Source of the DNA: a virus
IMG/VR virus record: IMGVR_UViG_3300032093_000557
Location: 1-31,352 of that record
Length of the DNA: 31,352 nucleotides
Reading direction: 5' to 3' (one strand)
Below, piece after piece: positions 1,511 through 30,009 of the stretch (position 1 is the stretch's first letter; each line of letters opens with the position of its first letter). The notes under the pieces were generated by a model that did no database searches, had not been told where the DNA came from, and saw nothing but the letters and a program-made list of their open reading frames with translations. The translations under genes and the position numbers were made by a program.

Positions 1511-2401
1511 TTATGATCTTCTGAGTTCTGTTAAGTAATCAGTAACAGGATTAAAGTCCTGAGTGTTTGTGTTTACTGATTCTGTTACGATTGAGGTAGG
1601 AACTTTTGCATCTTTTGATACAGATTTAGTTCTTGCTTGTTCAGCAAGAACAGTTCTTTCTTCATTTTCGTCTTTCTCAAACATTTCCACAACATAATTG
1701 AAGTTTTCTTCAATATATTTTGGGGACTTGTCACATAAAATTTTTGTTAAATACTCTTTCTTGGCTAAAGCCATTCCCTTTGTTTTCTTTTCAAGAAGGA
1801 GTGATGAGTTTGCTTGTTCTACAAGAGTAGAAAGTTTTGCATTTTCATTATAAGATTCATTTAATTTTTCTTGAAGTTCGTTAATTTGACTATTTCCCTT
1901 TTTAAGAACTTCTTTAACATTTTCATTTAGTTGCTCAGGATCAAGATTAAGCATATTCTTGATTTTCTCCAATTGAGTTTTGGCATGTGTGTTTGCAACT
2001 GCTTCTTCCAATTGTTTAACTGGCATTTGTTTTTCTAAATAAAGATCTAAATAATTGCTGATTTGGTCAATTAATTTATTACTAAATTGTTCAGCTTTTT
2101 CATTTAAAGAAGTTTTATAGAGATCAATAACTTCTTCAAGTTTTGCTGTATGGTTTTCATTGATTGCTTCAACTACTTGTTTTAATTTATTGGTGTGATC
2201 AAGATCCAATGCTTCAATTAAATTCTGAAGTTTTTCTGCATGTTCTTCGTCTTGCTTTAAAAGAGCAGATTCTAATTGCAAGGAAACTTTTGTTTCTGTT
2301 TTTTCATTTACTGCTTTTTCGAAAGCTTCTGCGATTGCTGAAGCTGTTTCTTCATTAAGAACGCTTTGATCCAAATTTTTAAGAATCGATGAGATATCCA
2401 T
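1511..2401 (-). CDS. 22: Prohead scaffold core protein, T4 gp22-like
   Basis: A 296-residue protein, almost entirely charged and helical, rich in Glu, Lys, Leu and Asn, and without a predicted membrane segment. Repeating leucine/charge patterns over residues 50-130 suggest a coiled coil. The segment with YLDLYLEKQMP followed by KQLEEAV (near residues 120-140) resembles the conserved part of T4 gp22, the main internal scaffold that is later cut up by gp21 and expelled. Many (L/I)xE tripeptides are present, as expected for a protease substrate. Its place between the gp68-like/gp21 genes and gp23 is the canonical T4 order and is the strongest support. Confidence 0.88.
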   Translation of the reverse strand: MDISSILKNLDQSVLNEETASAIAEAFEKAVNEKTETKVSLQLESALLKQDEEHAEKLQNLIEALDLDHTNKLKQVVEAINENHTAKLEEVIDLYKTSLNEKAEQFSNKLIDQISNYLDLYLEKQMPVKQLEEAVANTHAKTQLEKIKNMLNLDPEQLNENVKEVLKKGNSQINELQEKLNESYNENAKLSTLVEQANSSLLLEKKTKGMALAKKEYLTKILCDKSPKYIEENFNYVVEMFEKDENEERTVLAEQARTKSVSKDAKVPTSIVTESVNTNTQDFNPVTDYLTELRRS

Positions 2402-2640: not shown

Positions 2641-3312
2641 TTACAAACTTTTGAGTGCATTAATGAATGAAATGACTTGTTCTTTCAAATAAAGATCTTT
2701 ATTGTTTCTTGGAAGGTTGCTGATATTTTTTTCAAATCTTTCAAACAAAGGTTCAAAACTACCATTTTCTGAAAGAATCCATTGTTTTGATTCTAGAATA
2801 CCATTTACGAACGCAGTAGGAACAGATGGATCAGCAACAACATCAACAGCAACAAGTCTAAAATCAGAAACTCTATTGTATTGACCATCAGAATCAAGTC
2901 TACCCAATGCTCTAGAAGAAACACCTAGTTTAACTCCATCAAGAATAAGTGATCTAACAATTTGTCCCATAGGAGTTGAAAGAATTCTAGATTTTCCTTC
3001 AAAAATATTTCCGTTCTGTTTTAATTCTGTCACCATATGACAGATTCTTTCTAAATTGATTTCAGGACTTTGTGGATGATTGAGTTCTCCTGTAGATCTT
3101 TTTCCCACAATCATCTCGTTAGAATATCTATCGACTTCTTTAACCATTTCTTCTAATGGATAAATTCTTTTGTTTTTGTTAGCTTCATTAGCCATTAAAA
3201 ATGGACCATGAATAAATAAATTAGAAGGAGAGTTCCTGTTTTTTTCTTCAACTAAATATTGAACTTCATAGGTTGGTTCTTCAACTAAAAGTCGATAAGC
3301 TTTATTCTGCAT
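2641..3312 (-). CDS. 21: Prohead maturation protease, T4 gp21-like
   Basis: A 223-residue serine protease of the T4 prohead protease type (MEROPS S77). The family landmarks are present: GELNHP at residues 75-80 with the likely catalytic His79, GVSSRA at 130-135 with the likely nucleophile Ser133, and VDVVADPS at 156-163. It assembles inside the prohead, cleaves scaffold, capsid and internal proteins after (L/I)xE, and then itself. Two LVEE strings near residues 9-12 and 20-23 could be self-processing sites. It lies upstream of the gp68-like, gp22 and gp23 genes. The length is close to that of T4 gp21 (about 212). No Shine-Dalgarno sequence is visible; the leader is AT-only. Confidence 0.94.
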   Translation of the reverse strand: MQNKAYRLLVEEPTYEVQYLVEEKNRNSPSNLFIHGPFLMANEANKNKRIYPLEEMVKEVDRYSNEMIVGKRSTGELNHPQSPEINLERICHMVTELKQNGNIFEGKSRILSTPMGQIVRSLILDGVKLGVSSRALGRLDSDGQYNRVSDFRLVAVDVVADPSVPTAFVNGILESKQWILSENGSFEPLFERFEKNISNLPRNNKDLYLKEQVISFINALKSL

Positions 3313-11441: not shown

Positions 11442-13346
11442 TTAAGTAGGCGTTGATGGTGTTTCTGGTGGTGTCTCTGGTGATTGATTTACTTCGGATT
11501 CAGGTGGAGTAGGTGCACCAGTTACAGGTGTCTCAGAGCCTCCAAATTCAGGTATTTCTGCACTAGTAGAGCCACCACCAACCGATCCACCCGATGGTAA
11601 TCCCTCACCAGCAGCACTAGCTTCTTGAGCGGCATTTTGTGTGGCTTCCATTTGCTCTCTCCAATTTGGTCCAGCTGCTTGAATTTGCTGAAGTTCCCAA
11701 GCTAATGCGGCATCCTTCCTCTTCCATTCCATATTTTCACTTATCGAGGAATCTGACATTTCCAAATAATATCTTTGCGCAAAAGTATTAGAAATTCCTT
11801 CATTTTGAGACATATCACTAAAGTTTTTAAGTTTTAATTCTAATAGTTGTTGTTGTCTAATGGCAAAGAAATTAGAAGGAGGAACCATTTCAAGATTAAA
11901 ATAAGATTCTTGAAGTTTATATTCTTTCCATAATCCGGTTAATTTTAAATGAGTTATAAATGATGTTTTAATTCCAGAACTGAATTGATTTTGAAGCCTA
12001 ACAATAAATTTAGCAAATCTTAATTCCTCTTTAAGAATTTCTGCACCATCTTTAAATGATTCTTGTGGATTCAATCTGCTTGTGGGAACCTTTAAGCTCT
12101 TATAAAGTTTTAATACAAAATAATTTAAATCATCAAGCTGTCCTAAGTTTTGACCACCTTGAAGAACTTGGACATCAGATCCTTGTTCCCCTGCTCTTTT
12201 TGCAAACCAAAAAGAATCTAACATTGATTGTGGGTCATAAACATTTCCAGCAGATCCTCCACCAGATGCACTATTGGCTGATTGACTATCATATGTTTTT
12301 TTAGTCCAATATTTTTGCATTAAACTTTTTACATATGCTTCTGCTTTAGCCGGAGGCATGTTTCCCACATCTATGACAAATTTCAATCTTTCTGGTGCTC
12401 TAACCATTCTATAAATGATAATAGCATCTTCTAAAAGAGATAATAGTTTATATGCCCTTCTACAATTTTCTATAAATGGTAATTTAATTGTTACATTATC
12501 ATTCCATATACCAGAATCTATGTATGTAACCTGATTACCTTCTAATGTAATCATCTGGTGTTGCAAAGTATTTGCATTACCTATATTAGTCGGAAGATTA
12601 TTTGCGTTTGGTGTAAAATTAGGATTTCTTGGATCAGCTTGATTTACAAAATTTATTGGTTTTTGAAATAAGAAATTTTGAATTATATTATTTTGGACAT
12701 TATCGTAAATGGGATTTATGAGTTCACCAGGTATAGAAAGAACACCTATAACACCTTTGTCTTTTCTTTCTTCGTGTACAATATTTTCAAAGAAAATTTC
12801 TCCCTCGGTTAAAAGTTTTCTACAATAACCCCAACCTTTTGAATCAAGATCAAAACATTGTACAAATTTATAAAATTCTTTTTGTATTTCTGTTTTTGTT
12901 TCTTCGTCTATTTTTGTTATATTTGTAAAATTTATTTTTATAACTCTACCATTTTCATCCTTCGTTATAAATTCATCACAAATCTCGTCCAAACAATCAG
13001 ATACTTCTGCAAATGCAGCCATTCTTCTGTACTCTGAAAGTCTTCTTTGTTTATCAACATCCAAATTGGCATATATGTATTGATGATAACCTTTGTCAGA
13101 TCCAAAAACATTAGCAGGATTCATTGCATTGAATCCATCTTGGTTTAAATAAGGACCAACCAAAACAGATTGTTTCATTACATTCATCTGATATCTCTTA
13201 GATAACCTGTCAAACAATTCATACTTCGGATTGTTTGTTTCTGTTTCCATAACATCATTTATAAAAGGAAGTTTTGAAACTAATGAACTCATAAAAGATC
13301 TACCATTATCTTTTTGAATGTTTGCTTGTGGTGTTATTTCTGACAT
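11442..13346 (-). CDS. 20: Portal vertex protein, T4 gp20-like
   Basis: A 634-residue portal protein, longer than T4 gp20 (524). It shows the family pattern: a disordered N-terminus, then YRRMAAFAEVSDCLDEICDE near residues 106-125, a strand-rich wing, the RAYKLLSLLEDAIIIYRMVRAPERLKFVIDVGNMP region (near 300-330), then the clip and stem with LKVPTSRLNPQ. The final roughly 80 residues are Pro, Glu, Ser and Gly-rich and look disordered; they account for much of the extra length. The dodecameric ring nucleates head assembly and is the DNA gate. In T4 it is followed by genes 67, 68 and 21; here fibre and neck genes intervene. An AATAAATA motif lies 11 bases before the ATG. Confidence 0.93.
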   Translation of the reverse strand: MSEITPQANIQKDNGRSFMSSLVSKLPFINDVMETETNNPKYELFDRLSKRYQMNVMKQSVLVGPYLNQDGFNAMNPANVFGSDKGYHQYIYANLDVDKQRRLSEYRRMAAFAEVSDCLDEICDEFITKDENGRVIKINFTNITKIDEETKTEIQKEFYKFVQCFDLDSKGWGYCRKLLTEGEIFFENIVHEERKDKGVIGVLSIPGELINPIYDNVQNNIIQNFLFQKPINFVNQADPRNPNFTPNANNLPTNIGNANTLQHQMITLEGNQVTYIDSGIWNDNVTIKLPFIENCRRAYKLLSLLEDAIIIYRMVRAPERLKFVIDVGNMPPAKAEAYVKSLMQKYWTKKTYDSQSANSASGGGSAGNVYDPQSMLDSFWFAKRAGEQGSDVQVLQGGQNLGQLDDLNYFVLKLYKSLKVPTSRLNPQESFKDGAEILKEELRFAKFIVRLQNQFSSGIKTSFITHLKLTGLWKEYKLQESYFNLEMVPPSNFFAIRQQQLLELKLKNFSDMSQNEGISNTFAQRYYLEMSDSSISENMEWKRKDAALAWELQQIQAAGPNWREQMEATQNAAQEASAAGEGLPSGGSVGGGSTSAEIPEFGGSETPVTGAPTPPESEVNQSPETPPETPSTPT

Positions 13347-13357
13347 TTTAGTATTGT

Positions 13358-13365
13358 TATTTATT
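13358..13365 (-). promoter_or_regulatory. Candidate late promoter before portal gene
   Basis: On the minus strand AATAAATA, 11 bases before the portal ATG at 13346, overlapping the stop codon of the upstream giant gene. It shares seven of eight bases with the T4 late element. AT-rich surroundings make this uncertain. Confidence 0.3.
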
Positions 13366-16300
13366 AATCTTCTTGTAAGAATTCAAGATAATCTTGTTCT
13401 TTATTATCATATGTTAAATTTTCGTAATTCTCTGGATTTTGTTCATCTTTTGGATAATCGTTTGTTGAAAGTCTGGTTTTATCGTATTCTACATCATTAT
13501 AATTTATTTTCAAATAATTTTCATCTAATTCTATAAATCTTGAATCAGATTTTAATTTAAATAAAGAATAATTATTTCCGTATAAATCCATTTTCCAACT
13601 TGTTACAACACCTAAATCAACCAAATATTTTTTTCTTCTATCAAGATAAACATCCTTTGAAACTTCTCCTCTGAAGTTTAATCCACTACCAGTCCATCTC
13701 CTATTTTCATTATAAAATTGAAACGGATCAGTTGCTCTACTAACACCATATTGATTTATTCCCAATATTTCGTATTCACTTTGATATGGTGTGAATTTTT
13801 GTGTATTCTTTGTATTTGTTATTATACCAGAGACTTCACCTGAACCATACGGCATCATCATCCATCTATTATCTATATAAGATATTTTAGTTGGAGATAT
13901 ATTATCAACATTTGATAAACCTCTGGTAATAGGTCCATATTTCTCGGGATCTAAAAATATAGGTTCTATTTTGTTTTTCTCAAGTTCATAAACCTTTGCC
14001 TCATCTATTTGAATATTATAACCTATACCAGCAAAGAAAGGAACACCTAATTTTGTTGGTAATAAATAATGACCAATTTGTTTTTTAGAAACAAAATTAT
14101 TTGTGTATGGGATAGTTGCTATTGTTGGAAAGTTTACATTGTCCAAATGTGCATATGGATTTTTTGCTTGTAATATTTTACCGGAAAGTAATTGTGAATA
14201 TGTTGGATTACATTTATATAACAAGAAAAGATCTTGATTAAAAGAAAAACCATTTCTAGCAAAATAATTATATTTTGCTGGTTTGAACTCGTAAGTTTCT
14301 TCTAATAAAAGATCTGATTTTTCAAAAGTTCCTTTTGCTATGTATTCTAAAGAATCATTTTTAAATAACTTGGATAAATTTGAATATTGTTTGGAGAATT
14401 CTATTTTATTCCATTGATAATTTGTTTTATTTTCTTTAAATGAAATTTTATGAGAGAATTTAACTCTTTCTGGGCTTCTTCTTACATACTCAATATGATC
14501 GCTATATCCGAGAATCATGTCAGAAACTTCTGGTTGTTTTATTGGCAAATAATCCAACCATCTAACATGACCACCCATGTAAATGAGTTCTTTATTAAAG
14601 TTATTATCGTTATCTTCATCTACATATGCTTTACCCCAAAATGGTTTAGCACCTTTATAAACATCTATACTATCATTAATATATTTGTTGTTAGAATAAT
14701 CCCACCCTCTCAATGGTATTTTTATTGTAAAATACTTAGATGGTGTTGAAAATGAAATATATTCATCTAAAGGCGAAGAATAATTCATCGATTCTCTATG
14801 AACATATGCTATATTATCATTAGGTCTTAAAATAATGTCACTATCTTCTTCTGTAGAAATCCAATCACCGTTTCCATTTCTAACCATTTTCATCCATTTT
14901 GATCTAACATCACCACATTGGGATATTCTGTAAACAATATCTCTTATGACTCTTTCAATATTGTCAAATTCATTTACATTTAAATATTTTTGTAAATTAA
15001 AATATAACCCTTTTGTTGCAATAGTTTCCATTACATTGTTTAAAACAGAAAGAGGTCCAACATCAATCGATTGAATTTGAACTATGGATTCGTTTGTTAT
15101 TACCCAACTTGATCCATTCCATTTATATGTAGTGTTAATATCGTCAATATAATAGGCATCATTTTTAGCAACATCTGTTATATTGTTTAACTCTGAAAAT
15201 GTATTAAGACTAGCTATTAAATTTAAATTTCCTGTAATTTCATCTATATAAGAAGGTAGTAATATATTACCATACTTATCTTTAGCTAAGTCTGATGTCT
15301 CATTTCCATCACTAATAATGATAATTCTTTTTATTGCATCAGGTCTAGGTTGATTAAAAACAGGAACTCTTTGAGCATTTACAATTGTTGCATTTACATC
15401 AGAACAAAATTTATTTAAATTTAAAACGCTTTTTTTATTATTTTCTGTTATTTGTGTTGTTAAAAGATAGTATGCAAATTTTACAGCATCGTATATATTT
15501 GTTCTATACGTAAACTCGTTATTTTCATTATAATCCTCTAATATATTCAGAAAAGAAAACATGTCTGGAAAAAAAGAAATATAAGATGCTCTTATTTGCC
15601 TAGAATCAAAAGCAACTATACCTACCTGAACATTGTCAGAAACATTTGAAAGAATAGATTTTACAATTTCTTTAGAAGTATCTAAATTATATTTTTGTGA
15701 TTGACTTATATCAACACATAAAACTATATCATATGGTTGAGATGATAAACATTTTGCGTGTTGTTTCTTGTAATCATAAGAAATTACTAATTTTGGTCCA
15801 GAATTATCTACTTTTTTAAGATGTGATCTAAAATAAGTGTATCTTCTACCAGTCTTTAAAACCATCATTGCACCTGTTGATGTTTTCCAAGAACCAAACC
15901 CAAAACCAACTAAATTTGAATTTAAAGAATTTAATTGGAAAAAGGAAAATTGAGGACTTGATTTATAATCAAGACATCTTGTATCTTGCCAAGTAGTAAA
16001 ATCAAAATCTTCAGCAAGACCTTGTGGATCTGCATAAAGAACATCACACATTCCATCATAATCTGTTACATTTTTACCCTTATGTCCTATCGGGGAATAT
16101 AAAACAGATTTACAAGTACATAAATTCCAAAAATCTACATTATTTGTTATTGGTTTTGGATTTGAATAATCTTGATTTATGTAGTAATCTCTGTTCCTAT
16201 CATCATATTCACAATTTGTTTGATGGCTTGAATAATAAAAAACCTCATCTGCTAAAGTATCTTCTCCACACCATATAAAAGATACTCTTTTACCCGAATC

Positions 16301-19435: not shown

Positions 19436-19472
19436 TATAATTAATTATCCAGAAAGACTAAATATTATAATA
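19436..19472. promoter_or_regulatory. Divergent intergenic region
   Basis: Only 37 bases separate the divergent start codons at 19435 (minus) and 19473 (plus). The stretch is AT-rich with TATAATTAATTA on one side and TAAATATTATAATA on the other. Both directions must be driven from here or from within neighbouring genes. No TTGACA box or Shine-Dalgarno sequence is visible. Confidence 0.45.
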
Positions 19473-20414
19473 ATGAATAAATTTGATAAAATTATAAAGG
19501 AGGCATCGGAAGGAATGTCTGAAAATAAAGGTGGTACTGGTGGAATAGCACAAACTATAGGAAATATATACCAAGGAGCAAAACAAGTTGCAACAAATCC
19601 AAGTTTGAGTCCATTAATTAATATTGCAACATCTTTTTTTACTGAAAGAAATAAAATAAAACCCGTTGAAAGATCTTCGGTAGAAATTATGTTTAGAGAC
19701 ACAAGATTAGGAACAAAAGAAGCTCTAACTAACCCTGTTTTTTCATTAGATGCAATTGTTTTATATGATTCAAATGTAACAGACAAAAAAACACCAAGTA
19801 AAGGCAAATTAGTAGGTAGAGCAGTAAAACAAAGTGATCCAATTGTTAAAAATTTTTTAGATTTTTTACAAAAAAATAATTATAATCTTCCTCCGATTGA
19901 TAATAATTCAGGGAGAAGATTTTGGGTTGTTTTATCTCCACAGGGAGATAAAACGCTAAATACGATACTAACAAAATGGCAACAATTTTCAAACGCAGTA
20001 AAATCTAAATTTAATAAAGTAATAGGAAAATCAACACCTCAACAGCCTCAACAGACTCAACAGCCTCAAATTATACCAGACAATGAAAAACAACATTATA
20101 CATTTTATATTGCTGAAAGTGTGATTTCTAATAATATTGGAAAATTCACAATATCAGATAATCCTAATTATGATAATTATGCACAATGGAATACATCAAA
20201 CACATATTTAGAAATGGTTGACCAAAAAAAGGGAGGTGTTCTTCATAAACTTGTGCCAGTAAAAGAAAAAAATAATTTCAGTAGACTTTTACAAGCTGGT
20301 CCGGAAACTGCGTATGGAGTTTGGTATTTCTGTAAAGATTTAGAAAAATTACAATCAAGCGAAAAAGAAGAAAAGGAAACAACTTCATCATTTAATCTAA
20401 ACACAAGAACATAA
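19473..20414 (+). CDS. Candidate internal (packaged) head protein with capsid-targeting-like leader
   Basis: A 313-residue protein. The first 10 residues, MNKFDKIIKE followed by A, match the layout of T4 internal-protein leaders (10 residues ending IxE|A, removed by gp21). Residues about 20-50 are Gly/Ala/Asn-rich and amphipathic. Residues about 60-150 form an alpha/beta-looking domain (SVEIMFRDTRLG..., FSLDAIVLYDS, RRFWVVLSP). A Pro/Gln linker (QQPQQTQQPQ, near 190) leads to a second domain with YTFYIAESVI and YLEMVDQ. I do not recognise either domain. Position at the start of the plus-strand block, facing the virion operon, fits a late gene. Alternative: an ordinary structural protein. Confidence 0.6.
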   Translation: MNKFDKIIKEASEGMSENKGGTGGIAQTIGNIYQGAKQVATNPSLSPLINIATSFFTERNKIKPVERSSVEIMFRDTRLGTKEALTNPVFSLDAIVLYDSNVTDKKTPSKGKLVGRAVKQSDPIVKNFLDFLQKNNYNLPPIDNNSGRRFWVVLSPQGDKTLNTILTKWQQFSNAVKSKFNKVIGKSTPQQPQQTQQPQIIPDNEKQHYTFYIAESVISNNIGKFTISDNPNYDNYAQWNTSNTYLEMVDQKKGGVLHKLVPVKEKNNFSRLLQAGPETAYGVWYFCKDLEKLQSSEKEEKETTSSFNLNTRT

Positions 20415-20422
20415 AATTTGTT

Positions 20423-20451
20423 TTGACATTACAAAAAATTATCCGTAATGT
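20423..20451 (+). promoter_or_regulatory. Sigma70-type promoter with dyad (for lipoprotein gene)
   Basis: TTGACA at 20423-20428, a 17-base spacer, TAATGT at 20446-20451. ATG follows at 20461, so the predicted transcript start (about 20458) leaves almost no leader. ATTAC and GTAAT (12 bases apart) form a dyad overlapping the promoter. The 15 bases at 20437-20451 are the exact reverse complement of 23017-23031. Confidence 0.75.
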
Positions 20452-20460
20452 ACAAGGAGT

Positions 20461-20688
20461 ATGAAAAAACTACTCCAAACAATCATTCTAACATCAATAT
20501 CATTCTCATTTGTTGGTTGTGCATACCATACAACTCGTTCATATACTTATGGTTCACCTGAACGTGTGGTAGTAGAAAAACAGCCAATAATTATTAATCA
20601 AGCTCCACGATATCAACCAGTTAGACGTGCTGCTCCAGTATATGCACCAGTTCCAGAGTTTCAAACTGTATCATTTGTGTGCTATTGA
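20461..20688 (+). CDS. Small outer- or inner-membrane lipoprotein
   Basis: A 75-residue protein with a lipoprotein signal peptide: basic MKKLLQ, a hydrophobic run (TIILTSISFSFV) and a lipobox FVGC with the lipidated Cys at residue 20. The mature part (about 55 residues) is Tyr, Pro, Arg and Val-rich, with no fold I recognise. It should be exported and anchored in the cell envelope of a Gram-negative host. It has its own sigma70-like promoter and no ordinary ribosome site: the AGGAG just before ATG is too close, and it may not even be transcribed. Small phage lipoproteins such as T5 Llp block superinfection; that role is possible here but unproven. Confidence 0.82.
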   Translation: MKKLLQTIILTSISFSFVGCAYHTTRSYTYGSPERVVVEKQPIIINQAPRYQPVRRAAPVYAPVPEFQTVSFVCY

Positions 20689-20711
20689 TTTTGTGAATGG
20701 TTATTTTTATG

Positions 20712-20719
20712 TATAAGTA
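20712..20719 (+). promoter_or_regulatory. Candidate late promoter TATAAGTA
   Basis: TATAAGTA followed by TTATAC, 12 bases before ATG 20732. One base from T4 TATAAATA. The downstream gene encodes a protein with a gp21-type leader, which supports late expression. Confidence 0.45.
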
Positions 20720-20731
20720 TTATACATAAAC

Positions 20732-21754
20732 ATGAAAAGAAAAGATGATTTATTATTAGAACAACTTTATCAAGAAGGAATAATTGAAAGATTACGAGGA
20801 AAAGGTGCAGCTTTAGTAAAAGGTGCTGGTGCTGGACTCCAAAAATTTGGATCGAAAATTGCTGGGACAGAAGCTCCAAAAATTTCTGCAAGAGCAGAAT
20901 ATGCAAAGGCACAACAAAAATCTCTTTTAAATTCTTTTAAGAGAAAAGTAGAATCTGAAATAAAAGATTTTTATAATGATTTAAAAACTTTTAAGGTTGA
21001 TCCAGACCCAACCCAATTAGAAAAAGATTTTCCTGTTATTGCTCAGAAACTAAAAGTAATTCAAAATCTAAGAGACTATCTTTCCGATCCAGAAAAATAT
21101 CCAAAACCATCTACAATATCTCCGGATTTCGAGGTTCTTCCTCCAGAAAGTTCAGCTGAACAAAAACCTCAACAACAGCAATCTCTTCCATCAACAGGAG
21201 AGAAACTGGCATTACCAAACAATAATAGAATGGGTCTTCCTTCTCCAGAAGAAAAGGATGCATCAAAATCGAATGAAGAATTTTTAGCAGCAAGAGGAGT
21301 AGCACAAACACCAACTCAAGAAAAACCTACAAGTTCACCAGTGTCTGATTCTCAAACACCAGAAGAAAGAGCGGGTTTAGAACAAGTAACACAACCACCC
21401 AAACAAAATCCAGTAAATAGAATGACTTATAAAGGTGCGGAATATAGTAGGGACGAAGAAGGAAATTGGATAAAACATATTAAAGGAAGTAAATTTGGAA
21501 ACAAACAACCTTTAGATGCACAAAGAAATAGAAATTTAATTAAAAATTTAAACAGTTCCGCTGTTTCATATACAAAAGAAGAAAAACCTGTGGGTTCCGA
21601 AGTAGCAGCAAAAAAAGCAGCAAAAAGAGCACCAATGGCAAAATCTAAAATCGAGGCTGATAGACTAAGGGAAGGTGATCCAAGCAAAGGAGCATTAATA
21701 GGAGATTCTTATAACCCATTTGCAGAATTTTTAAAAGGATATCAATTAGTATGA
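20732..21754 (+). CDS. Candidate internal head protein, disordered, capsid-targeting-like leader
   Basis: A 340-residue basic protein. The leader MKRKDDLLLE (10 residues ending LLE) has the layout of a gp21-cleaved capsid-targeting sequence and nearly matches MKLKDDILLE of the minus-strand gene starting at 26094. Next come a Gly/Ala/Lys amphipathic region (near 18-45), a helical segment (near 55-115) and about 150 residues of Pro, Gln, Ser and Glu low-complexity linker. A basic C-terminal part ends in YNPFAEFLKGY. No enzyme motif is visible. The stop overlaps the next start (ATGA), so the two are coupled. T4 injects disordered or small internal proteins of this kind; I infer packaging, not function. 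Confidence 0.62.
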   Translation: MKRKDDLLLEQLYQEGIIERLRGKGAALVKGAGAGLQKFGSKIAGTEAPKISARAEYAKAQQKSLLNSFKRKVESEIKDFYNDLKTFKVDPDPTQLEKDFPVIAQKLKVIQNLRDYLSDPEKYPKPSTISPDFEVLPPESSAEQKPQQQQSLPSTGEKLALPNNNRMGLPSPEEKDASKSNEEFLAARGVAQTPTQEKPTSSPVSDSQTPEERAGLEQVTQPPKQNPVNRMTYKGAEYSRDEEGNWIKHIKGSKFGNKQPLDAQRNRNLIKNLNSSAVSYTKEEKPVGSEVAAKKAAKRAPMAKSKIEADRLREGDPSKGALIGDSYNPFAEFLKGYQLV

Positions 21755-23013
21755 ACACACATCAAGATATTAAAACATTAAATGATTTGTATTATAAAAG
21801 AGTTTTCTTAAAAGAAGATTCAAATAATCAACAAGAATCTCTTTCTACTTTGTTTTCTGCACTAAAAGGAAAAGAGCAACAAGTAAAACAAATTGCACAA
21901 GAATTAGAACCAGTTATAGATAAAGCATTAGAAAATCCAGAAGAAGCTGCAAATTTAAAATCAGAAGATATCAAAGAAATACCACAAGAGTCATATATAG
22001 CCGAAGGTATTTTTAAAAGAGGAGTATCAAATGTAGCAGGAATGGCAAGAACATTTAAAGGTGCTTCTGATAAAGATAACAATTTTCAAACAAATCGAGT
22101 CAATAAAAGGTACGAAATGTTGAAAAACAAAGTAGAAAAACATTTAAGAGAACTTGAAAGAGATTTGGATGTTAGCTCTGATTATGATCAAACTGTTAAG
22201 AATGAAATAAAAGGAATGATATCTCGTCTTTCTTCTGAAGAGTTTGGAAGTATAACACCAAAGCAATCAAAGTTTGGAGACTTCAGACACAAAATGGGAA
22301 GAGGAGTTGAATGGTTAGGAACAGCCGCTACATTGGGTGGTATTGCTGCTGTTTTGGGTGCAGGTATAGCAGGTGCTGTTGGTGCATCAGGAATCGCAGC
22401 AGGGTTAATACAAGGTGCTGTAGTTGGTGCTGTAAGAAAAGCTGGTGCAGACATTATTAACGGAAAAAAACCAACTGTAAAAGAAGTTGCAACGCAAGCT
22501 GCAATTGTTGCCGCATTAGGTGGAGTTACAAACCTCCCTGTAACTCAAGAATTCATATCAAACAATTTAGATGCTATTTATAATCATCTATTTGGTGGTG
22601 ATGAAGTAGGATCAACAATTTCCGATTCTATTCCTGATGATTCTATTCCTGATGATTCAGAGGTCTTAGATCAAGAGTTTTTTAGCGGTTCAACATTAAA
22701 TCCAGAAGATTATTTTGAAAGATGGCATGATTCATCATTCGATTTCGACTCTGATTTAGATCAGAGTAAGTTGGATTTTGATAATGCTTTATTTAATAAA
22801 GGTTTAAAAGGTATTGGAGAGTGGTCAGATGGTCCTTCTCCCGCAATAGTTAATGCAGCATCAGAAGCTAATTTAGATGCTGATGATTATGCAAAATTAA
22901 CAGAAAAATTAAATGGCTTGACTGATGATCAGTTAAATAATTTTAAAAAGAACTTTGAATCAAATCCAGCAAAATACGCAAAAGCACTTATAAAAACTTT
23001 AATGAAAAAATAA
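21751..23013 (+). CDS. Candidate ejected protein with Gly/Ala hydrophobic segment
   Basis: A 420-residue protein, coupled to the gene before it through ATGA. The N-terminus (MNTHQDIKTLNDLYYKRVFLKED) has an LKE at residues 20-22 that gp21 could cut. Residues about 90-150 are helical and charged. Residues about 190-235 are a long Gly/Ala/Val/Ile segment (starting TAATLGGIAAVLGAGIAG) that could insert into a membrane or pack as an alpha-helical hairpin. An acidic linker follows, with a perfect 15-base tandem duplication giving DSIPDDSIPDDS, and then a helical C-terminal domain. The layout (basic leader, membrane-active middle, acidic linker) would suit an internal virion protein released into the envelope. 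No recognisable enzymatic domain was seen. Confidence 0.6.
   Translation: MNTHQDIKTLNDLYYKRVFLKEDSNNQQESLSTLFSALKGKEQQVKQIAQELEPVIDKALENPEEAANLKSEDIKEIPQESYIAEGIFKRGVSNVAGMARTFKGASDKDNNFQTNRVNKRYEMLKNKVEKHLRELERDLDVSSDYDQTVKNEIKGMISRLSSEEFGSITPKQSKFGDFRHKMGRGVEWLGTAATLGGIAAVLGAGIAGAVGASGIAAGLIQGAVVGAVRKAGADIINGKKPTVKEVATQAAIVAALGGVTNLPVTQEFISNNLDAIYNHLFGGDEVGSTISDSIPDDSIPDDSEVLDQEFFSGSTLNPEDYFERWHDSSFDFDSDLDQSKLDFDNALFNKGLKGIGEWSDGPSPAIVNAASEANLDADDYAKLTEKLNGLTDDQLNNFKKNFESNPAKYAKALIKTLMKK
22624..22653 (+). repeat. Perfect 15-base tandem duplication
   Basis: GATTCTATTCCTGAT occurs twice back to back (22624-22638 and 22639-22653), in frame, doubling the peptide DSIPD in an acidic linker. It probably arose by slippage. 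Confidence 0.9.
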
Positions 23014-23042
23014 TTGACATTACGGATAATTCTCTGTAGTTT
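23014..23042 (+). promoter_or_regulatory. Sigma70-type promoter with dyad (for metzincin gene)
   Basis: TTGACA at 23014-23019, 17-base spacer, TAGTTT at 23037-23042; ATG at 23054, 11 bases after the -10. The dyad half-sites are ATTAC and GTAGT, 12 apart. Bases 23017-23031 are the exact reverse complement of 20437-20451. Confidence 0.7.
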
Positions 23043-23053
23043 CAATTATTGTC

Positions 23054-23587
23054 ATGAAAAACATTATTGTTATTGCTGTCCTTATTGGTGGATTCTTTTA
23101 TTTCACCAATGATAAGTCTGTTTCAATCGAGTATTATTATGATGGTAATTATCCAAACGAAATTCAGAAAGGATTGGATTATTGGGGATCGAATAGAATG
23201 GAATTTATAAGAACAAAAAATCCAAGAAATGCTTTTTTACATATCCAACATGTTGACCCAAAATATATTAAAAATAAAAATTGGGTTGCACAATATGTTC
23301 CAAGAACAAAGACTATAATGCTTAATAATTATTATGACAAGTATTTGAAAGGTAATTATTTATCAGCAACAGTTGCACATGAGGCTGGTCATTTCATCGG
23401 TCTAGCACATAATGACGAAACAAATTCCATTATGAACTATAAATTAGAATATAGTAAAACAGCACCATCATTTCTTGACAAACAAAGAGCAAATGATAGA
23501 ATTACTTTATTGTATTATAAAAAGAAATTCAGTAACTTTATAAACGAAAATGATGACTACTCTTACATTGGATCAAGCTATAAATAA
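23054..23587 (+). CDS. Metzincin-type zinc metalloprotease, exported or membrane-anchored
   Basis: A 177-residue protein. An N-terminal hydrophobic helix (IIVIAVLIGGFFYF, residues 4-17) after a single Lys is a signal peptide or anchor. The zinc site HEAGHFIGLAH at 109-119 (His109, Glu110, His113, His119) and the Met-turn SIMNY at 125-129 are the marks of the matrixin/astacin-like metzincins. A short strand-rich half precedes it, and the length fits a minimal catalytic domain. It should act outside the cytoplasmic membrane on peptides or envelope proteins; the substrate cannot be seen. It has its own sigma70-like promoter 11 bases upstream and probably near-leaderless mRNA. Its last 38 bases overlap the next gene. 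A viral metzincin is uncommon. Confidence 0.88.
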   Translation: MKNIIVIAVLIGGFFYFTNDKSVSIEYYYDGNYPNEIQKGLDYWGSNRMEFIRTKNPRNAFLHIQHVDPKYIKNKNWVAQYVPRTKTIMLNNYYDKYLKGNYLSATVAHEAGHFIGLAHNDETNSIMNYKLEYSKTAPSFLDKQRANDRITLLYYKKKFSNFINENDDYSYIGSSYK

Positions 23588-24269
23588 TTGTACTCCTATA
23601 GAATGTTCAATGCCTTCCATTGAAGTATCAAATAGATACAAAATAATTTCAACAAAAAATGTTTTACAAAAAGCTATTGAAGATGGTTGGAAAATTTTTG
23701 AAACATATAAATCAGGAAAAAAGATAACATCTCAACACTTTGTTTTAATGACACATGATGTTATATTAAATAATGATGTTGTATCAAAACACTCTATACC
23801 ATTTATTTGTCTAACAAATAGTCATAATGGAAAAAATAGTTTCAAATATGTTCTTGGTTATTATTCATTTGTGAATAATATTAAGATCTTTACAGAAGAT
23901 GCTTACATGGAAAATTGTATCGTTAATCACAAGAAGGATAATGAAACAGATGCTCTTAAAAAATTAAATCAAACTAAAATATATTTCAGAAGTTTTTTTG
24001 ATACACTTAAAACATTTCAAAACAAATTCTTATCAGAAAATGAAACAAAAACATTTGAATTATATGTTAATAAGATTTCTAACAAAACTATAACAATAGA
24101 TTACAATAAAGAAAATAGTTTGTGGTTTATATCAAATATGATTCATATTCAACTGAGAAAAAACTTCAAATCAAACATGATATTTTCTCAAAAGATTTGG
24201 AAAGCAATGTGTGCTTCTCTTATTTTCGATGAAGATAATCTTAAATCATTTTTAATAAACAATGAATAG
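23550..24269 (+). CDS. DUF932-like phage protein
   Basis: A 239-residue protein. The start at 23550 overlaps the metzincin end; an in-frame ATG at 23610 would avoid this, but the residues before it look natural. Features resemble the DUF932 / phage-plasmid-like family: an early SNRYKIISTKNVLQKAIEDGW (SxxYxxIxTxxVxxxxxxxGW), QHFVLMTHDV, and a NSHNGKNSFKYVLGYYSFVNN stretch (NSHDGxxxx...G..R.V..N). The remainder is helical. The family is common in phages and plasmids and has no established function. The stop overlaps the deaminase start by 8 bases, so these genes are likely one transcript. Confidence 0.5.
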   Translation: MMTTLTLDQAINNCTPIECSMPSIEVSNRYKIISTKNVLQKAIEDGWKIFETYKSGKKITSQHFVLMTHDVILNNDVVSKHSIPFICLTNSHNGKNSFKYVLGYYSFVNNIKIFTEDAYMENCIVNHKKDNETDALKKLNQTKIYFRSFFDTLKTFQNKFLSENETKTFELYVNKISNKTITIDYNKENSLWFISNMIHIQLRKNFKSNMIFSQKIWKAMCASLIFDEDNLKSFLINNE

Positions 24270-24669
24270 AATTTTGTGGGATGACTATGCTATGAGATTA
24301 GCAATCGTTGCTTCATTAAGGTCAGAAGACCCTTATATGAGAGTTGGTGCTTGTGGTCTGAATAAGCAAAATAGAGTTATAGGAGTTGCATATAATGGTC
24401 TTGCTTCTGGTAAAATTGTTGATACTGAATTTTGGAAAGACAGAGATAAAAGAAGACCATTTATGATTCATGCAGAAGCAAACCTTCTTTCTTTAATTAA
24501 GAAAGATGAGTGTCATTTACTTGCTTGCACACTTTTGCCTTGTTCAAACTGTGCAACCCTTATAGCTGCTCATGGAATTAAAAGAGTGATCTATTCAGAA
24601 TTATACGATAAAGATAAAAAAGGTCTGGAAATTTTTGATTTCTATGGAATTGAACATAAAAAGATTTGA
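24262..24669 (+). CDS. Deoxycytidylate/cytidine deaminase
   Basis: A 135-residue zinc deaminase of the dCMP deaminase type. The zinc site reads HAE (in FMIHAEANLLSL, near residues 74-76) and PCSNC (near 92-96). The N-terminal VGACGLNKQNRVIGVAYNGLASG is the family's nucleotide-binding strand and loop. dCMP deaminases turn dCMP into dUMP to feed dTTP synthesis; T4 carries one (cd). It is shorter than T4's (193), so the insert that binds the allosteric dCTP/dTTP may be missing. It overlaps the DUF932-like gene and is followed by a tiny gene. Alternative: a related nucleobase or RNA-modifying deaminase. Confidence 0.85.
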   Translation: MNRILWDDYAMRLAIVASLRSEDPYMRVGACGLNKQNRVIGVAYNGLASGKIVDTEFWKDRDKRRPFMIHAEANLLSLIKKDECHLLACTLLPCSNCATLIAAHGIKRVIYSELYDKDKKGLEIFDFYGIEHKKI

Positions 24670-24671
24670 TT

Positions 24672-24791
24672 ATGAATACAGAAAACACAGAAGATGTTTC
24701 GGAAGTATCAATAAAACCTATTAAAAATAAATGGTTTTATTTAATAAAAACATATTTAAAGATTTTTTATTACAAAATAACTTTAAGATAA
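24672..24791 (+). CDS. Small protein (39 residues), possible
   Basis: ATG 24672 opens 2 bases after the deaminase stop and closes at 24791. The peptide starts MNTENTEDVSEVS (acidic) and ends with an aromatic, basic helix (WFYLIKTYLKIFYYKITLR). It might associate with a membrane. I do not recognise it. Evidence is only its spacing, codon use similar to its neighbours, and that it fills the gap before a late-promoter-like site. Confidence 0.4.
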   Translation: MNTENTEDVSEVSIKPIKNKWFYLIKTYLKIFYYKITLR

Positions 24792-24793
24792 AA

Positions 24794-24801
24794 TATAAAT
24801 A
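24794..24801 (+). promoter_or_regulatory. Exact T4 late promoter element TATAAATA
   Basis: TATAAATA followed by TTTTTG, ending 18 bases before ATG 24820. This is the full T4 late (gp55) consensus, though it occurs in AT-rich sequence. Confidence 0.55.
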
Positions 24802-24819
24802 TTTTTGTAAATATCTTAT

Positions 24820-25185
24820 ATGTTAGATTTAAAATTATTGATAGAAAAGATTTTATTAGAAAGTCTTATTAGAGATAGATTAATTTCGATTTATAATAAA
24901 ACAATAGACGTAAAAAAAGAATATGAAAAGAATAAAATTCGATTCAAATCATCAAGAGAGGAATCTAAAAAGAATCTCAATCATTATATTTTAAAAAGAA
25001 TTGAGTTAAGATATCAATTGGGTGATTTGTTAAAAGGTAAACCAGTTTTATCAAAAGGTAAAGTTTTAGAAACAGAAGAAGACTTAGACGAATATATTAT
25101 AAACAAAGACGCTCAATTTAATGATTTAATTGTTCTTAGTTCCAGACTTTTACCAAATTCACAAAGTTTTACAGGTCCACTATAA
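24820..25185 (+). CDS. Small helical protein upstream of deaminase-fold gene
   Basis: A 121-residue, Lys/Glu/Leu-rich, helical protein of unknown function. Its N-terminus (MLDLKLLIEKILLES) contains LIE and LLE, possible gp21 sites near residues 9 and 14, similar in layout to the other leader-bearing proteins but less exact. A coiled-coil-like segment covers residues about 20-70. An exact TATAAATA lies 18 bases upstream of the ATG. Its stop at 25183-25185 is followed one base later by a TTG that opens the deaminase-fold gene. Confidence 0.6.
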   Translation: MLDLKLLIEKILLESLIRDRLISIYNKTIDVKKEYEKNKIRFKSSREESKKNLNHYILKRIELRYQLGDLLKGKPVLSKGKVLETEEDLDEYIINKDAQFNDLIVLSSRLLPNSQSFTGPL

Positions 25186-25186
25186 C

Positions 25187-25594
25187 TTGAATAAATTTAA
25201 AAGATTAGAAGATATATCCAAATCTTTGGTAGATTATAATTCTTCCAAAAGATGTCATCATTTTTCATTTGTTTTATATAAAAACAGAATTGTTTCTATT
25301 GGCTATAATTCTAAAAAAACTCACCCAGTAAATTTAAAAAACAGAAAAAAAAGTTTAAAGACTGGTGAGGATTTCTCTGACCAAAAATATGTTTGCAGTG
25401 AATTTAGTGCTATCAATAAATTAAAGAATATGACAAATATAGATAGCAAAAAATGCGTCCTTGTTAATTTAAGATACAATAGGAATGCAGAAATAGCACT
25501 TTCAAAACCATGTATGTCTTGTGAAAACCTTTTAAAATATTTTAGTTTTAAAAAAGTTATATGGACAGATGATAATGGTAATTACATTTGTTGA
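25187..25594 (+). CDS. Cytidine-deaminase-fold protein with non-ATG start
   Basis: A deaminase-fold protein of about 135 residues. The zinc site reads CSE (YVCSEFSAINKL) and PCMSC (KPCMSCENLLKYF), with the usual helix after each, and a strand SFVLYKNRIVSIGYN before the first. No in-frame ATG precedes the domain; the choices are TTG at 25187, one base after the upstream stop, or TTG at 25130, which would overlap the previous gene by 56 bases. I chose 25187. It could also be reached by translational coupling or by a frameshift from the upstream gene, which would fuse the deaminase to the helical protein. Unlike the HAE enzyme at 24262, this CxE form resembles cytidine deaminases and nucleic-acid-editing relatives. 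Its 3' end overlaps the opposite-strand gene. Confidence 0.7.
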   Translation: MNKFKRLEDISKSLVDYNSSKRCHHFSFVLYKNRIVSIGYNSKKTHPVNLKNRKKSLKTGEDFSDQKYVCSEFSAINKLKNMTNIDSKKCVLVNLRYNRNAEIALSKPCMSCENLLKYFSFKKVIWTDDNGNYIC

Positions 25595-26094
25595 GAAGAA
25601 ACCTGATTTGGTTGTTCATCTCTTGCGTCTTTAAGTTTTTCTATATCTCTTTGAGCCAAGATAGTATCTAATTGTTTTTTTAAATTAGGATCTTGTGTAG
25701 TATCTCTAATTTGTTCTAATTTAGTATAAGGATCTTCTGAATTATCTTGTGTAATTGGTCCACCAGTCTTAGCATAAGATGCTTGTCTGGTTTGTGAAGT
25801 TGTTGATGGAGCGATATTTTTATTCTGTGGGTTTACATATCCACCAGTCTTAGCATAAGATGCTTGCTGGGTTAATGTATTTTCATCTAATTTTGTTTTC
25901 TTTTTTCCTTTTTTACTATCTGTATAACCTGTTTTCTTTTTAACTCCTTTAACACATTTTTCAAACTTTTCTGGTTCTTTTTTCTTCCCACCTGTAGAAG
26001 CATTACAAACAGCCCAAGGATTAACCTTTTTCTTTGCTTCTTCTAAAACAGTTGAATATGCTTGTTCAAGTAAAATATCGTCTTTTAATTTCAT
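25582..26094 (-). CDS. Candidate packaged small protein with capsid-targeting-like leader
   Basis: A 170-residue basic protein, start at ATG 26094: the leader MKLKDDILLE (10 residues, ending LLE) nearly matches that of the 20732 protein. An ATG 10 codons earlier adds a poorly fitting extension. Residues about 20-60 read KKKVNPWAVCNASTGGKKK and EKFEKCVKGVKKKTGY, the conserved NPWAVC...F..CVKxVKK phage peptide, with two Cys. QASYAKTGG occurs twice in the middle (see repeat). The C-terminus is acidic and helical. GATAAGTA lies 8 bases upstream. I infer a minor packaged protein or DNA-binding internal protein; the NPWAVC family has no known function that I can state. It overlaps the convergent deaminase gene by 13 bases. 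Confidence 0.65.
   Translation of the reverse strand: MKLKDDILLEQAYSTVLEEAKKKVNPWAVCNASTGGKKKEPEKFEKCVKGVKKKTGYTDSKKGKKKTKLDENTLTQQASYAKTGGYVNPQNKNIAPSTTSQTRQASYAKTGGPITQDNSEDPYTKLEQIRDTTQDPNLKKQLDTILAQRDIEKLKDARDEQPNQVSSQQM
25760..25866 (-). repeat. 26-base direct repeat inside the 26094 gene
   Basis: CCACCAGTCTTAGCATAAGA plus TGCTTG occurs at 25760-25785 and again at 25841-25866. In the protein this gives QASYAKTGG twice. The rest of the two units differs, so it is a short in-frame duplication. Confidence 0.85.
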
Positions 26095-26102
26095 GTCAAT
26101 TA

Positions 26103-26110
26103 TACTTATC
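26103..26110 (-). promoter_or_regulatory. Candidate late promoter GATAAGTA
   Basis: On the minus strand GATAAGTA then TAATT, 8 bases before ATG 26094. The same eight bases precede the fibre gene at 11031. Confidence 0.4.
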
Positions 26111-26563: not shown

Positions 26564-27574
26564 ATGAAATTGGCATCTATTGAAACGATTAAAAAAATAC
26601 GTGAACATCCAAATGCTGATTCTTTACAAATTTGTGAATTGCTTGGATGGCAAACTGTTGTAAAAAAAGGAATCCATAAAGAAGGAGATAAGGTTGTTTT
26701 CATTACGATTGATTCTATTGTTCCTCGTTGTGAGTGGTCTGAGTTTTTGGTAGATCAAAAGAATCCAAATAAACCTTTGCGTATAAAGAATATTAAACTA
26801 AGGGGAGAATATTCTTCTGGATTGGTAATACCTTTAACGGAATTTCCTATACAATTTACAGCAGTTGATGAAGGACACGATGTAACTGAACTTCTTAGTA
26901 TAACCAAATATATTAAAGAAATACCAGCAAATCTTTCCGGAGAGAACGCAGGAGATTTTCCGAGTCATCTTGCACCAAAGACAGATGAGGACAATGGACT
27001 GAATGATCCTTCTCTTGTTGAAGAAGTTTTTAATTCAGATAATGAGGTTACAATAACATCTAAGATAGATGGTTCAAGTTGCACATTAGTTGTTGAGGAT
27101 GGAAAACTCGTTCAAGTCTGTTCAAGGAACCTATCAAAGAAAGAGACAGATAATTCAACATTCTGGAATGCCTCTAAAAAATTAAAATTTCCAGATGGTT
27201 GGAATGGTATTATTCAAGGAGAACTTGCAGGAAACGGAATCCAAAAAAATCAACTAAAATTGGAAGGTATTACCCTTTTTGTCTTTCAAATTTCACAAAA
27301 TGGTGTTTATATGACCTATGATGAGATGAAGAATTTCTGTGAAAATACTCTTGAATGTAATGTTGTTCCCCTACTTGCGAAGTTGAGGGTAGAAGAAACA
27401 ATTAGACTCTGGACTAATCCACTTGCAAAATTACAGGAATACACAGACAAACAAAAATATCCAAGTGGACTAGATGCAGAAGGAATTGTTGTAAGACCTT
27501 CTAATTACATTAGAAGTAGAAATTCAAGAAGACCATTAGGATTCAAACTAATTAACAGAAATTACAAAGACTAA
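26564..27574 (+). CDS. RNA ligase, Rnl5-type with N-terminal OB domain
   Basis: A 336-residue ATP-dependent RNA ligase. Residues about 1-110 form an OB-fold domain of the type found at the N-terminus of the Deinococcus RNA ligase (DraRnl, Rnl5): IREHPNADSLQICEL, then GDKVVFITIDSIVP and LRIKNIKLRGEYSSGLVIPL. The nucleotidyltransferase domain follows: motif I SKIDGSS with the AMP-accepting Lys167, QGELAGNGI (motif III), LFVFQI (motif IIIa), EGIVVRP (motif IV) and LGFKLINRNY (motif V). It therefore has all the residues needed to adenylate RNA and seal a nick. T4 phages use RNA ligases to repair tRNAs cut by host anticodon nucleases; this enzyme's likely partner is unknown. The own promoter 10 bases upstream implies early expression. 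Confidence 0.88.
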   Translation: MKLASIETIKKIREHPNADSLQICELLGWQTVVKKGIHKEGDKVVFITIDSIVPRCEWSEFLVDQKNPNKPLRIKNIKLRGEYSSGLVIPLTEFPIQFTAVDEGHDVTELLSITKYIKEIPANLSGENAGDFPSHLAPKTDEDNGLNDPSLVEEVFNSDNEVTITSKIDGSSCTLVVEDGKLVQVCSRNLSKKETDNSTFWNASKKLKFPDGWNGIIQGELAGNGIQKNQLKLEGITLFVFQISQNGVYMTYDEMKNFCENTLECNVVPLLAKLRVEETIRLWTNPLAKLQEYTDKQKYPSGLDAEGIVVRPSNYIRSRNSRRPLGFKLINRNYKD

Positions 27575-29826: not shown

Positions 29827-30009
29827 ATGGAAAACGAACAAATAATCACAGAATATAACGAAAACACAGATGTTCCCTTCATTGAAGATGAAGAAAAAAC
29901 AAATTCAGAATTTTCAACAGAAGAAGAAAAGAAATTCAAAGGTTCAAATGTAAAAGTGTTCATAACAGAACCAAAATCAAATATTAATATCAATAATGAT
30001 TATATCTAA
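29827..30009 (+). CDS. Small acidic protein, unknown
   Basis: A 60-residue acidic protein (EYNENTDVPFIEDEEKTNSEF, Glu-rich middle, then KVFITEPKSNININNDYI). It is predicted to be mostly disordered. Its stop lies inside the next small frame, at 29996. An exact late-like TATAAATA lies 9 bases before its ATG. Nothing about its function can be read. Confidence 0.45.
   Translation: MENEQIITEYNENTDVPFIEDEEKTNSEFSTEEEKKFKGSNVKVFITEPKSNININNDYI

Follow-up and report, generated by a model that had tools for sequence, protein, structure and literature searches.

The 31,352-base virus record IMGVR_UViG_3300032093_000557 (analysed as a whole and called the window below) raises the question of whether several of its proteins, which begin with short leaders ending in hydrophobic-x-Glu motifs, are loaded into the phage head and delivered to the next host, as are the internal proteins (IPs) of phage T4. 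A preliminary description of this DNA had pointed to five genes, named here after the position of their start, and the five N-termini are present as it gave them: MNKFDKIIKE↓A (19473; the arrow marks a predicted cut), MKRKDDLLLE (20732), MKLKDDILLE (26094, on the minus strand, matching the former at 8 of 10 positions), LKE at residue 22 (21751) and LIE and LLE (24820). The gp21 gene that it placed in the window is also there, with clear Pfam and PHROG matches (Table 1). Our analysis indicates that the leaders are very probably capsid-targeting propeptides that would load proteins into the head, be trimmed by gp21 and allow delivery of the bodies with the DNA. Targeting, packaging and processing are strongly suggested by the sequences, and we infer injection by analogy with T4. 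For 19473, 20732, 21751 and 26094, there is strong support for the idea of head-targeting leaders that gp21 would process, on proteins that are packaged and are candidates for injection; 24820 has a possible leader.

In T4, according to PMC9026906, packaging needs no more than the first ten residues of IPIII, MKTYQEFIAE; of the leader residues, 4 and 7 act in targeting whereas 8 and 10 act in processing, and the cut by gp21 follows (I/L)xE. The leader of 19473 has the layout of T4 IPIII (F4-x-x-I7-I8-x-E10↓A11), with F4, I7, I8 and E10 at the four T4 positions, and its relatives (72% and 33% identity) keep M1, N2, K3, F4, D5, E10 and A11 invariant. The 10-residue gp21-type leader described for the set holds for this protein, which reads as a genuine T4-type leader with a predicted cut at E10↓A; it does not hold for 20732 and 26094, which carry an 18-20-residue variant containing the T4 core. 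There are two leader classes: a T4-type class of 8-11 residues (19473) and an extended class of 18-20 residues (20732, 26094 and, as an LLKE variant with E at Y+7, 21751). As read from the sequences, the extended leader consists of a new prefix, M[KR]xKDQILLE, followed by a T4-like core, Y-x-x-[IV]-L-x-E: Y4-F7-I8-E10 of T4 correspond to Y13-[IV]16-L17-E19, with the same spacing shifted by nine residues, so that the spacing is matched but not the exact 10-residue form. The (I/L)xE ending is found in 19473 (IKE↓A), 26094 (LEE↓A) and 21751 (LKE↓D); the conserved site of 20732 is Y-Q-E↓G, in which P3 is neither I nor L.

A profile built from ten leaders was run on long viral records, with T4 as control, and a DNA pattern representing the first 13 leader residues (residues 2, 4, 5, 7-10 and 13 demanded, 12 and 16-20 free) was also searched. 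The pattern matched more than 119 viral stretches among the matches listed; 257 Gb of bacterial and archaeal genomes gave 20 matches, which were treated as background. At least 205 viral proteins carry the extended leader, M[KR]xKDQILLExAYxx[IV]L..E, on bodies that form at least 107 BLASTP clusters, 75 of them singletons. One leader is thus carried by otherwise unrelated proteins of the same phage, and 20732 and 26094 belong to this family with bodies in different clusters. Up to residue 17 the information per residue is high; by residue 21 it is at background, conservation ending at residue 20. Family members score 19-52 bits, T4 candidates at most 12.5 bits, and no shuffled N-terminus exceeded 12.9 bits, with zero above 18. 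Furthermore, seven long gp21-positive genomes carry 4-10 extended leaders each, and the T4 control carries none. For 20732 and 26094, the occurrence of the same leader on unrelated bodies is far beyond chance. A description of the extended leader was not found in the open-access literature. A 45-kb contig carries 14 extended-leader genes, eight of them in one nearly continuous run (L196 2804-11604; G040 20780-42899), a possible cargo island.

The strongest single observation is a swap between extended and T4-type leaders joined exactly at the predicted cut. The same body, 87-89% identical, is found as MKNKDQILLENLYTE↓MAYPVSFSFEEFN in L203 and as MKSFKQYIKE↓MAYPVSFSFEEFN in L267, L195 and G040; a body of this MAYPVSFSF type also occurs in G051 as MATFSEYLFE↓EYPQNFSFGEFN. 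Likewise, bodies starting with SPE are found as MNRDHKLLEEAYRQVRLFE↓SPEIVG and as MISFKKYFLLE↓SPEYID and MLSFEKYYLLE↓SPEYVN, and a chimera in which the prefix is joined to a T4-type core, MRSKDQILLDNISFKQYFLE↓KYKRMSAGMD, has the counterpart MNFDYMVE↓KYKRMSAGMD. This suggests that extended and T4-type leaders are two exchangeable classes of a wider address system, of which the ten-residue signal of T4 may be one form.

The minus strand of the window encodes a T4-type head module (capsid protein, gp22-like scaffold, small gp67-like protein and gp21 protease, with the portal further on), so that both an S77 protease and a T4-type capsid protein with an (I/L)xE propeptide are present. In the lineage, the capsid propeptide ends in [IL]xE in 46 of 50 capsid proteins, and the residue after the cut (P1') is A in 27, G in 8, S in 6, N in 4, T in 4 and V in 1 of the 50 relatives. 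For the gp21 protein of the window, 71 relatives were found; its own N-terminus, MQNKAYRLLVEE, shares a Y-x-x-L-V-x-E layout with the leaders in a layout scan. gp21 is encoded on every leader contig that reaches 195 kb (three in all). Co-occurrence with gp21 on every leader contig was set aside as uninformative on fragments, and a lineage test over 62 leader loci was used instead: 479 of their 611 non-leader genes (78%) have homologues in gp21-positive genomes.

Where the extended leaders would be cut is a separate matter, and here the cut after residue 10 proposed earlier probably has to be moved. The cut most likely lies at a second site between E15 and E22, where conservation stops, the predicted positions being E19↓A in 26094, E15↓G in 20732 and E22↓D in 21751. 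Among 103 cluster representatives in register, 77% have an [ILVFMY]xE motif whose last residue is number 18, 19 or 20, compared with about 2% at each later position; the motif was not part of the DNA search pattern, and the P1' residue after it is A, G, S, N or T in 64% (background 30%), as in the capsid protein. In the family of 26094, every body start AKKKVNPWA directly follows [LI]xE, whatever the length of the leader: the window has LEE↓A, other members have LEE↓A, INE↓A and IVE↓A, and the L189 member has INE↓A behind a long insert. The sole member without the AKKK start is that of G002. In the family of 20732, E stands directly before G-x-[WIL]-[DE]-R-L in 5/5 members (YQE↓G in three, VNE↓G and IEE↓G), and 21751 and its G002 relative (42% identity; IYFKRVLLKE↓E) share KRV[FL]LKE at the same place. 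A rather unlikely alternative is a cut at E10 that leaves residues 11-20 on the mature protein, for instance as a head-docking helix. It would account for L8-L9-E10, which is conserved and fits (I/L)xE, and for the fact that no other (I/L)xE site nearby is kept in full throughout the 20732 family; moreover, phiKZ-type propeptides have several cut sites (PMC9026906), and by this analogy E10 may be an additional cut site. However, the P1' residue after E10 is E, Q or D in 48% of representatives and never in the 50 capsid proteins, conservation runs on to residue 17-20 before it stops, and leader exchanges and body starts coincide with the second site. The AKKKVNPWA domain is also found inside longer proteins (L155, L189, L205, L238), directly after [IL]xE (IVE↓A, ITE↓A, LIE↓S), and this points to gp21 cuts within these proteins that would release the domain.

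Other explanations concern what the leaders are for. The leader proteins might be prohead-core components, cleaved and consumed in assembly like T4 gp67 and gp68 and never delivered; some bodies are indeed disordered and Lys-rich, and T4 core proteins are degraded by gp21 (PMC9026906). This is unlikely: the unrelated bodies number at least 107, with CCA-adding enzyme, Nudix, GNAT and PARP-like domains among them, and do not resemble scaffold, and the gene content varies between genomes. It is very unlikely that the shared N-terminus serves another machine as a docking or localisation tag, or that it is an expression element common to these genes. The prefix KDQILLE is without counterpart in T4, but conservation at the protein level extends across unrelated genes, and a head propeptide would be expected to combine the T4 layout, a terminal (I/L)xE, late-promoter-like elements and exchange with T4-type leaders. 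Chance is hardly credible as a general explanation. It has force for the short motif alone, hydrophobic-x-Glu being common at N-termini (4.3% of N-termini against 1.9% of internal Met segments); it is contradicted for 20732 and 26094 by the absence of the extended leader from shuffles and T4, and relatives of 19473 keep the critical residues.

Several results weigh against capsid-targeting propeptides as the explanation. gp21 lies on just 5 of 37 leader contigs, mostly because the contigs are fragments; the gp21-positive genome G010 has zero extended leaders in the profile scan; and a recognisable second site is absent from 27 of the 103 representatives. For most of the set, the DNA pattern required residues 2, 4, 5, 7-10 and 13, and this overstates their conservation. 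Finally, tblastn of the leader alone (24 residues, hence of low sensitivity) against 50,697 phage records gave no match, and no isolate.

Scanning genomes for 10-residue leaders, as the preliminary description had advised, shows the motif to be enriched but weak alone: of 2003 called genes, 3.3% have (I/L)xE ending at residue 10, compared with 1.2% per internal position. The short-leader regular expression was not used as a stand-alone detector because of about 1.9% false positives, and 19473 escaped it owing to a later start picked by the gene caller. T4 gp61.1 (54 aa; NC_000866 18966-19130, L151) begins with MKTFKEFIKE↓D, which closely copies the T4 targeting leader, and is a candidate packaged protein. 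T4-type leaders of the form MNF(R/K)EFF(T/S)E↓A also begin proteins of 880-900 aa (G017 31845-34547, L106; G010 12951-15593, L144); that of G017, with a cytidyltransferase-like C-terminal region (phrog_3041), is a candidate large packaged enzyme.

Most of the 107 representative bodies are nameless. Those that could be named are a CCA-adding/poly(A) polymerase with an HD domain, a Nudix protein, three GNATs, a PARP/DUF3990-like protein, GP88, an M91-like peptidase and DUF5661. Since CCA-adding enzyme, Nudix hydrolase, GNATs and an ADP-ribosyltransferase (ART)-like protein are among them, delivered enzymes are plausible. The PARP/ART-like body has a Pfam match at E=1.8e-4 and an AlphaFold model of pLDDT 61 whose best fold matches are PARPs, weakly (E ~0.06); it has no homologues in isolated phages. 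When GP88 and nucleotidyltransferase bodies were searched in isolates, the tRNA nucleotidyltransferase of Sinorhizobium phage phiN3 was found to start at the enzyme domain, without leader, so that the leader looks like an added module. A search against a library of defence genes gave no clear match. T4 IPI-III block type IV restriction enzymes and have just the leader in common (PMC12373910), which makes counter-defence the likeliest general role of the cargo by analogy. On balance, we think it probable that, in a widespread uncultured T4-like lineage, the extended leader is a universal head address tag, freely exchanged with T4-type leaders, that loads a large, fast-changing set of enzymes (CCA-adding, Nudix, GNATs, ART-like and others) as immediate counter-defence or takeover effectors, a set readable from metagenomes.

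T4 internal-protein targeting is already known; the extended leader form with a much larger cargo set is new. IPI, IPII and IPIII share with the proteins described here an N-terminal leader ending in (I/L)xE, aromatic or hydrophobic targeting positions at the same spacing, unrelated bodies and a gp21 of the same family, but their capsid-targeting sequence lacks the M[KR]xKDQILLE prefix that brings the extended class to 18-20 residues. T4 has three IPs and at least ten are known in related phages (PMC12373910), against at least 107 body clusters lineage-wide and as many as 14 leader genes within 45 kb here. The window proteins would work like IPs and are not classed as their homologues: the bodies gave no Pfam or PHROG match to IPI, IPII or IPIII, and no such homologue was found in phage records for 19473, 20732 and 26094. 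T4 Alt, a packaged ADP-ribosyltransferase cut by gp21, is a precedent for a packaged enzyme and for the leader family with a PARP/ART-like body; however, the ART assignment is weak and a sequence relation to Alt is not established. In phiKZ and SPN3US, according to the relevant parts of PMC5694885 and PMC9026906, many head proteins are likewise cut after x-x-Glu by a gp21-related protease and cargo is ejected, but several propeptides exceed 100 residues, sites are S/A-x-E and a short shared leader is not reported in those parts. DarB of P1 has an N-terminal head-targeting signal between 9 and 30 residues, and Dar proteins are injected defence proteins, but their N-termini have no consensus by BLAST (PMC9024508), whereas the consensus is strong here. 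Phage proteins that are injected escape easy detection, since their bodies have nothing in common; with a leader recognisable in raw sequence, they can be looked for by text search, as was done for T-even internal proteins. In uncultured phages, the extended leader marks at least 107 body clusters, most without known function, each with a predicted mature N-terminus, so that one virion proteome would test all of them.

Leader genes also resemble each other upstream. The T4 late promoter is TATAAATA, which NTAARTA resembles, and of 200 leader genes 68.5% have this element in the 32 nt upstream, compared with 26% of 1196 other genes (p=7e-30); its position peaks 12-15 nt before the ATG. In the window it precedes 19473, 20732, 24820 and 26094, and 21751, whose start overlaps the stop of 20732, follows it in one operon. 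Leader genes show no enrichment of Shine-Dalgarno-like GGAG in front of them (14% against 18%); together with the position of the element, this suggests that late mRNAs may be nearly leaderless. The proteins would be made late in infection, together with head proteins; the leader would dock each into the prohead core before shell closure; the gp21-type protease would then cut after the hydrophobic-x-Glu site, the leader peptide being lost, and the mature body would stay with the packaged DNA and enter the next host at infection.

Table 1. Leader genes, head genes and late-promoter-like elements of the window
Feature	Position	Strand	Remarks
Major capsid protein, open at window end	1-1431	-	propeptide predicted to end WCIEE↓AGNTAG
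gp22-like scaffold protein	1511-2401	-	PF25623 T4_CASP E=0.0012 (below curated cut-off); phrog_237 head scaffolding protein E=0.004; adjoins gp21 and capsid genes
gp21-type prohead protease (S77)	2641-3312	-	PF03420 Peptidase_S77 E=1e-27; phrog_207 head maturation protease E=1e-58
CTAAATA	19458-19464	+	15 nt upstream of 19473 start; read from sequence
19473, 313 aa, T4-type short leader MNKFDKIIKE↓A	19473-20414	+	leader codons 19473-19502; predicted gp21 cut after E10
ATAAGTA	20713-20719	+	upstream of 20732; read from sequence
20732, 340 aa, basic, probably disordered, extended leader MKRKDDLLLEQLYQE↓GIIERLRG	20732-21754	+	leader hidden Markov model match; cut predicted to follow E15 (leader codons up to 20776) or, alternatively, E10 (up to 20761)
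21751, 420 aa, variant leader ...LYYKRVFLKE↓D	21751-23013	+	predicted cut after E22 (codons 21751-21816)
TATAAATA and GTAAATA	24794-24801 and 24807-24813	+	upstream of 24820; read from sequence
24820, 121 aa, N-terminus MLDLKLLIEKILLES (LIE, LLE)	24820-25185	+	candidate leader, sequence only
26094, 170 aa, basic, extended leader MKLKDDILLEQAYSTVLEE↓AKKKVNPWAV	25582-26094	-	leader hidden Markov model match; cut predicted to follow E19 (leader codons 26038-26094) or, alternatively, E10 (26065-26094)
ATAAGTA	26103-26109	-	upstream of 26094; read from sequence

The basic character attributed to the products of the leader genes was recovered in four of them (isoelectric point 9.2-9.4) and not in 21751 (4.9), and the AlphaFold model of 19473 has a mean pLDDT of 32, too low to be of use. 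Searches against PHROG and Pfam gave no family match for 19473 and 20732 and sub-threshold ones at most for 21751, 24820 and 26094; isolated-phage records held no homologues of 19473, 20732 and 26094. No related protein was found against which the candidate leader of 24820 could be tested; an unrelated G040 protein begins with MKKIKLLIEEILDA, noted beside the N-terminus of 24820. Among viral records, one of 130.8 kb carries a relative of 19473 (71% identity), and records of 210.6 kb and 40.4 kb carry relatives of 20732 (34%), 21751 (42%) and 26094 (51%).

Directly downstream of 21751, in a neighbourhood kept in G002, lies a gene for a small matrixin-like zinc metalloprotease (23054-23587, plus strand; PF00413 E=1.7e-6, HEAGHFIGLAH, N-terminal membrane or signal segment). 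Near the leader genes are also two deaminase-like proteins (24262-24669 and 25130-25594, plus strand; motifs HAEANLLSL...CSNC and CSEFSAINKL...CMSC) and a probable RNA ligase (26564-27574). Moreover, an acidic protein of 60-75 aa (29827-30009, plus strand; G002 35332-35559, minus strand) starts with MENEQIITEYNE and MSKKDEQIITEYNE, respectively, which resemble KDQILLE, and it may be another substrate of the head protease.

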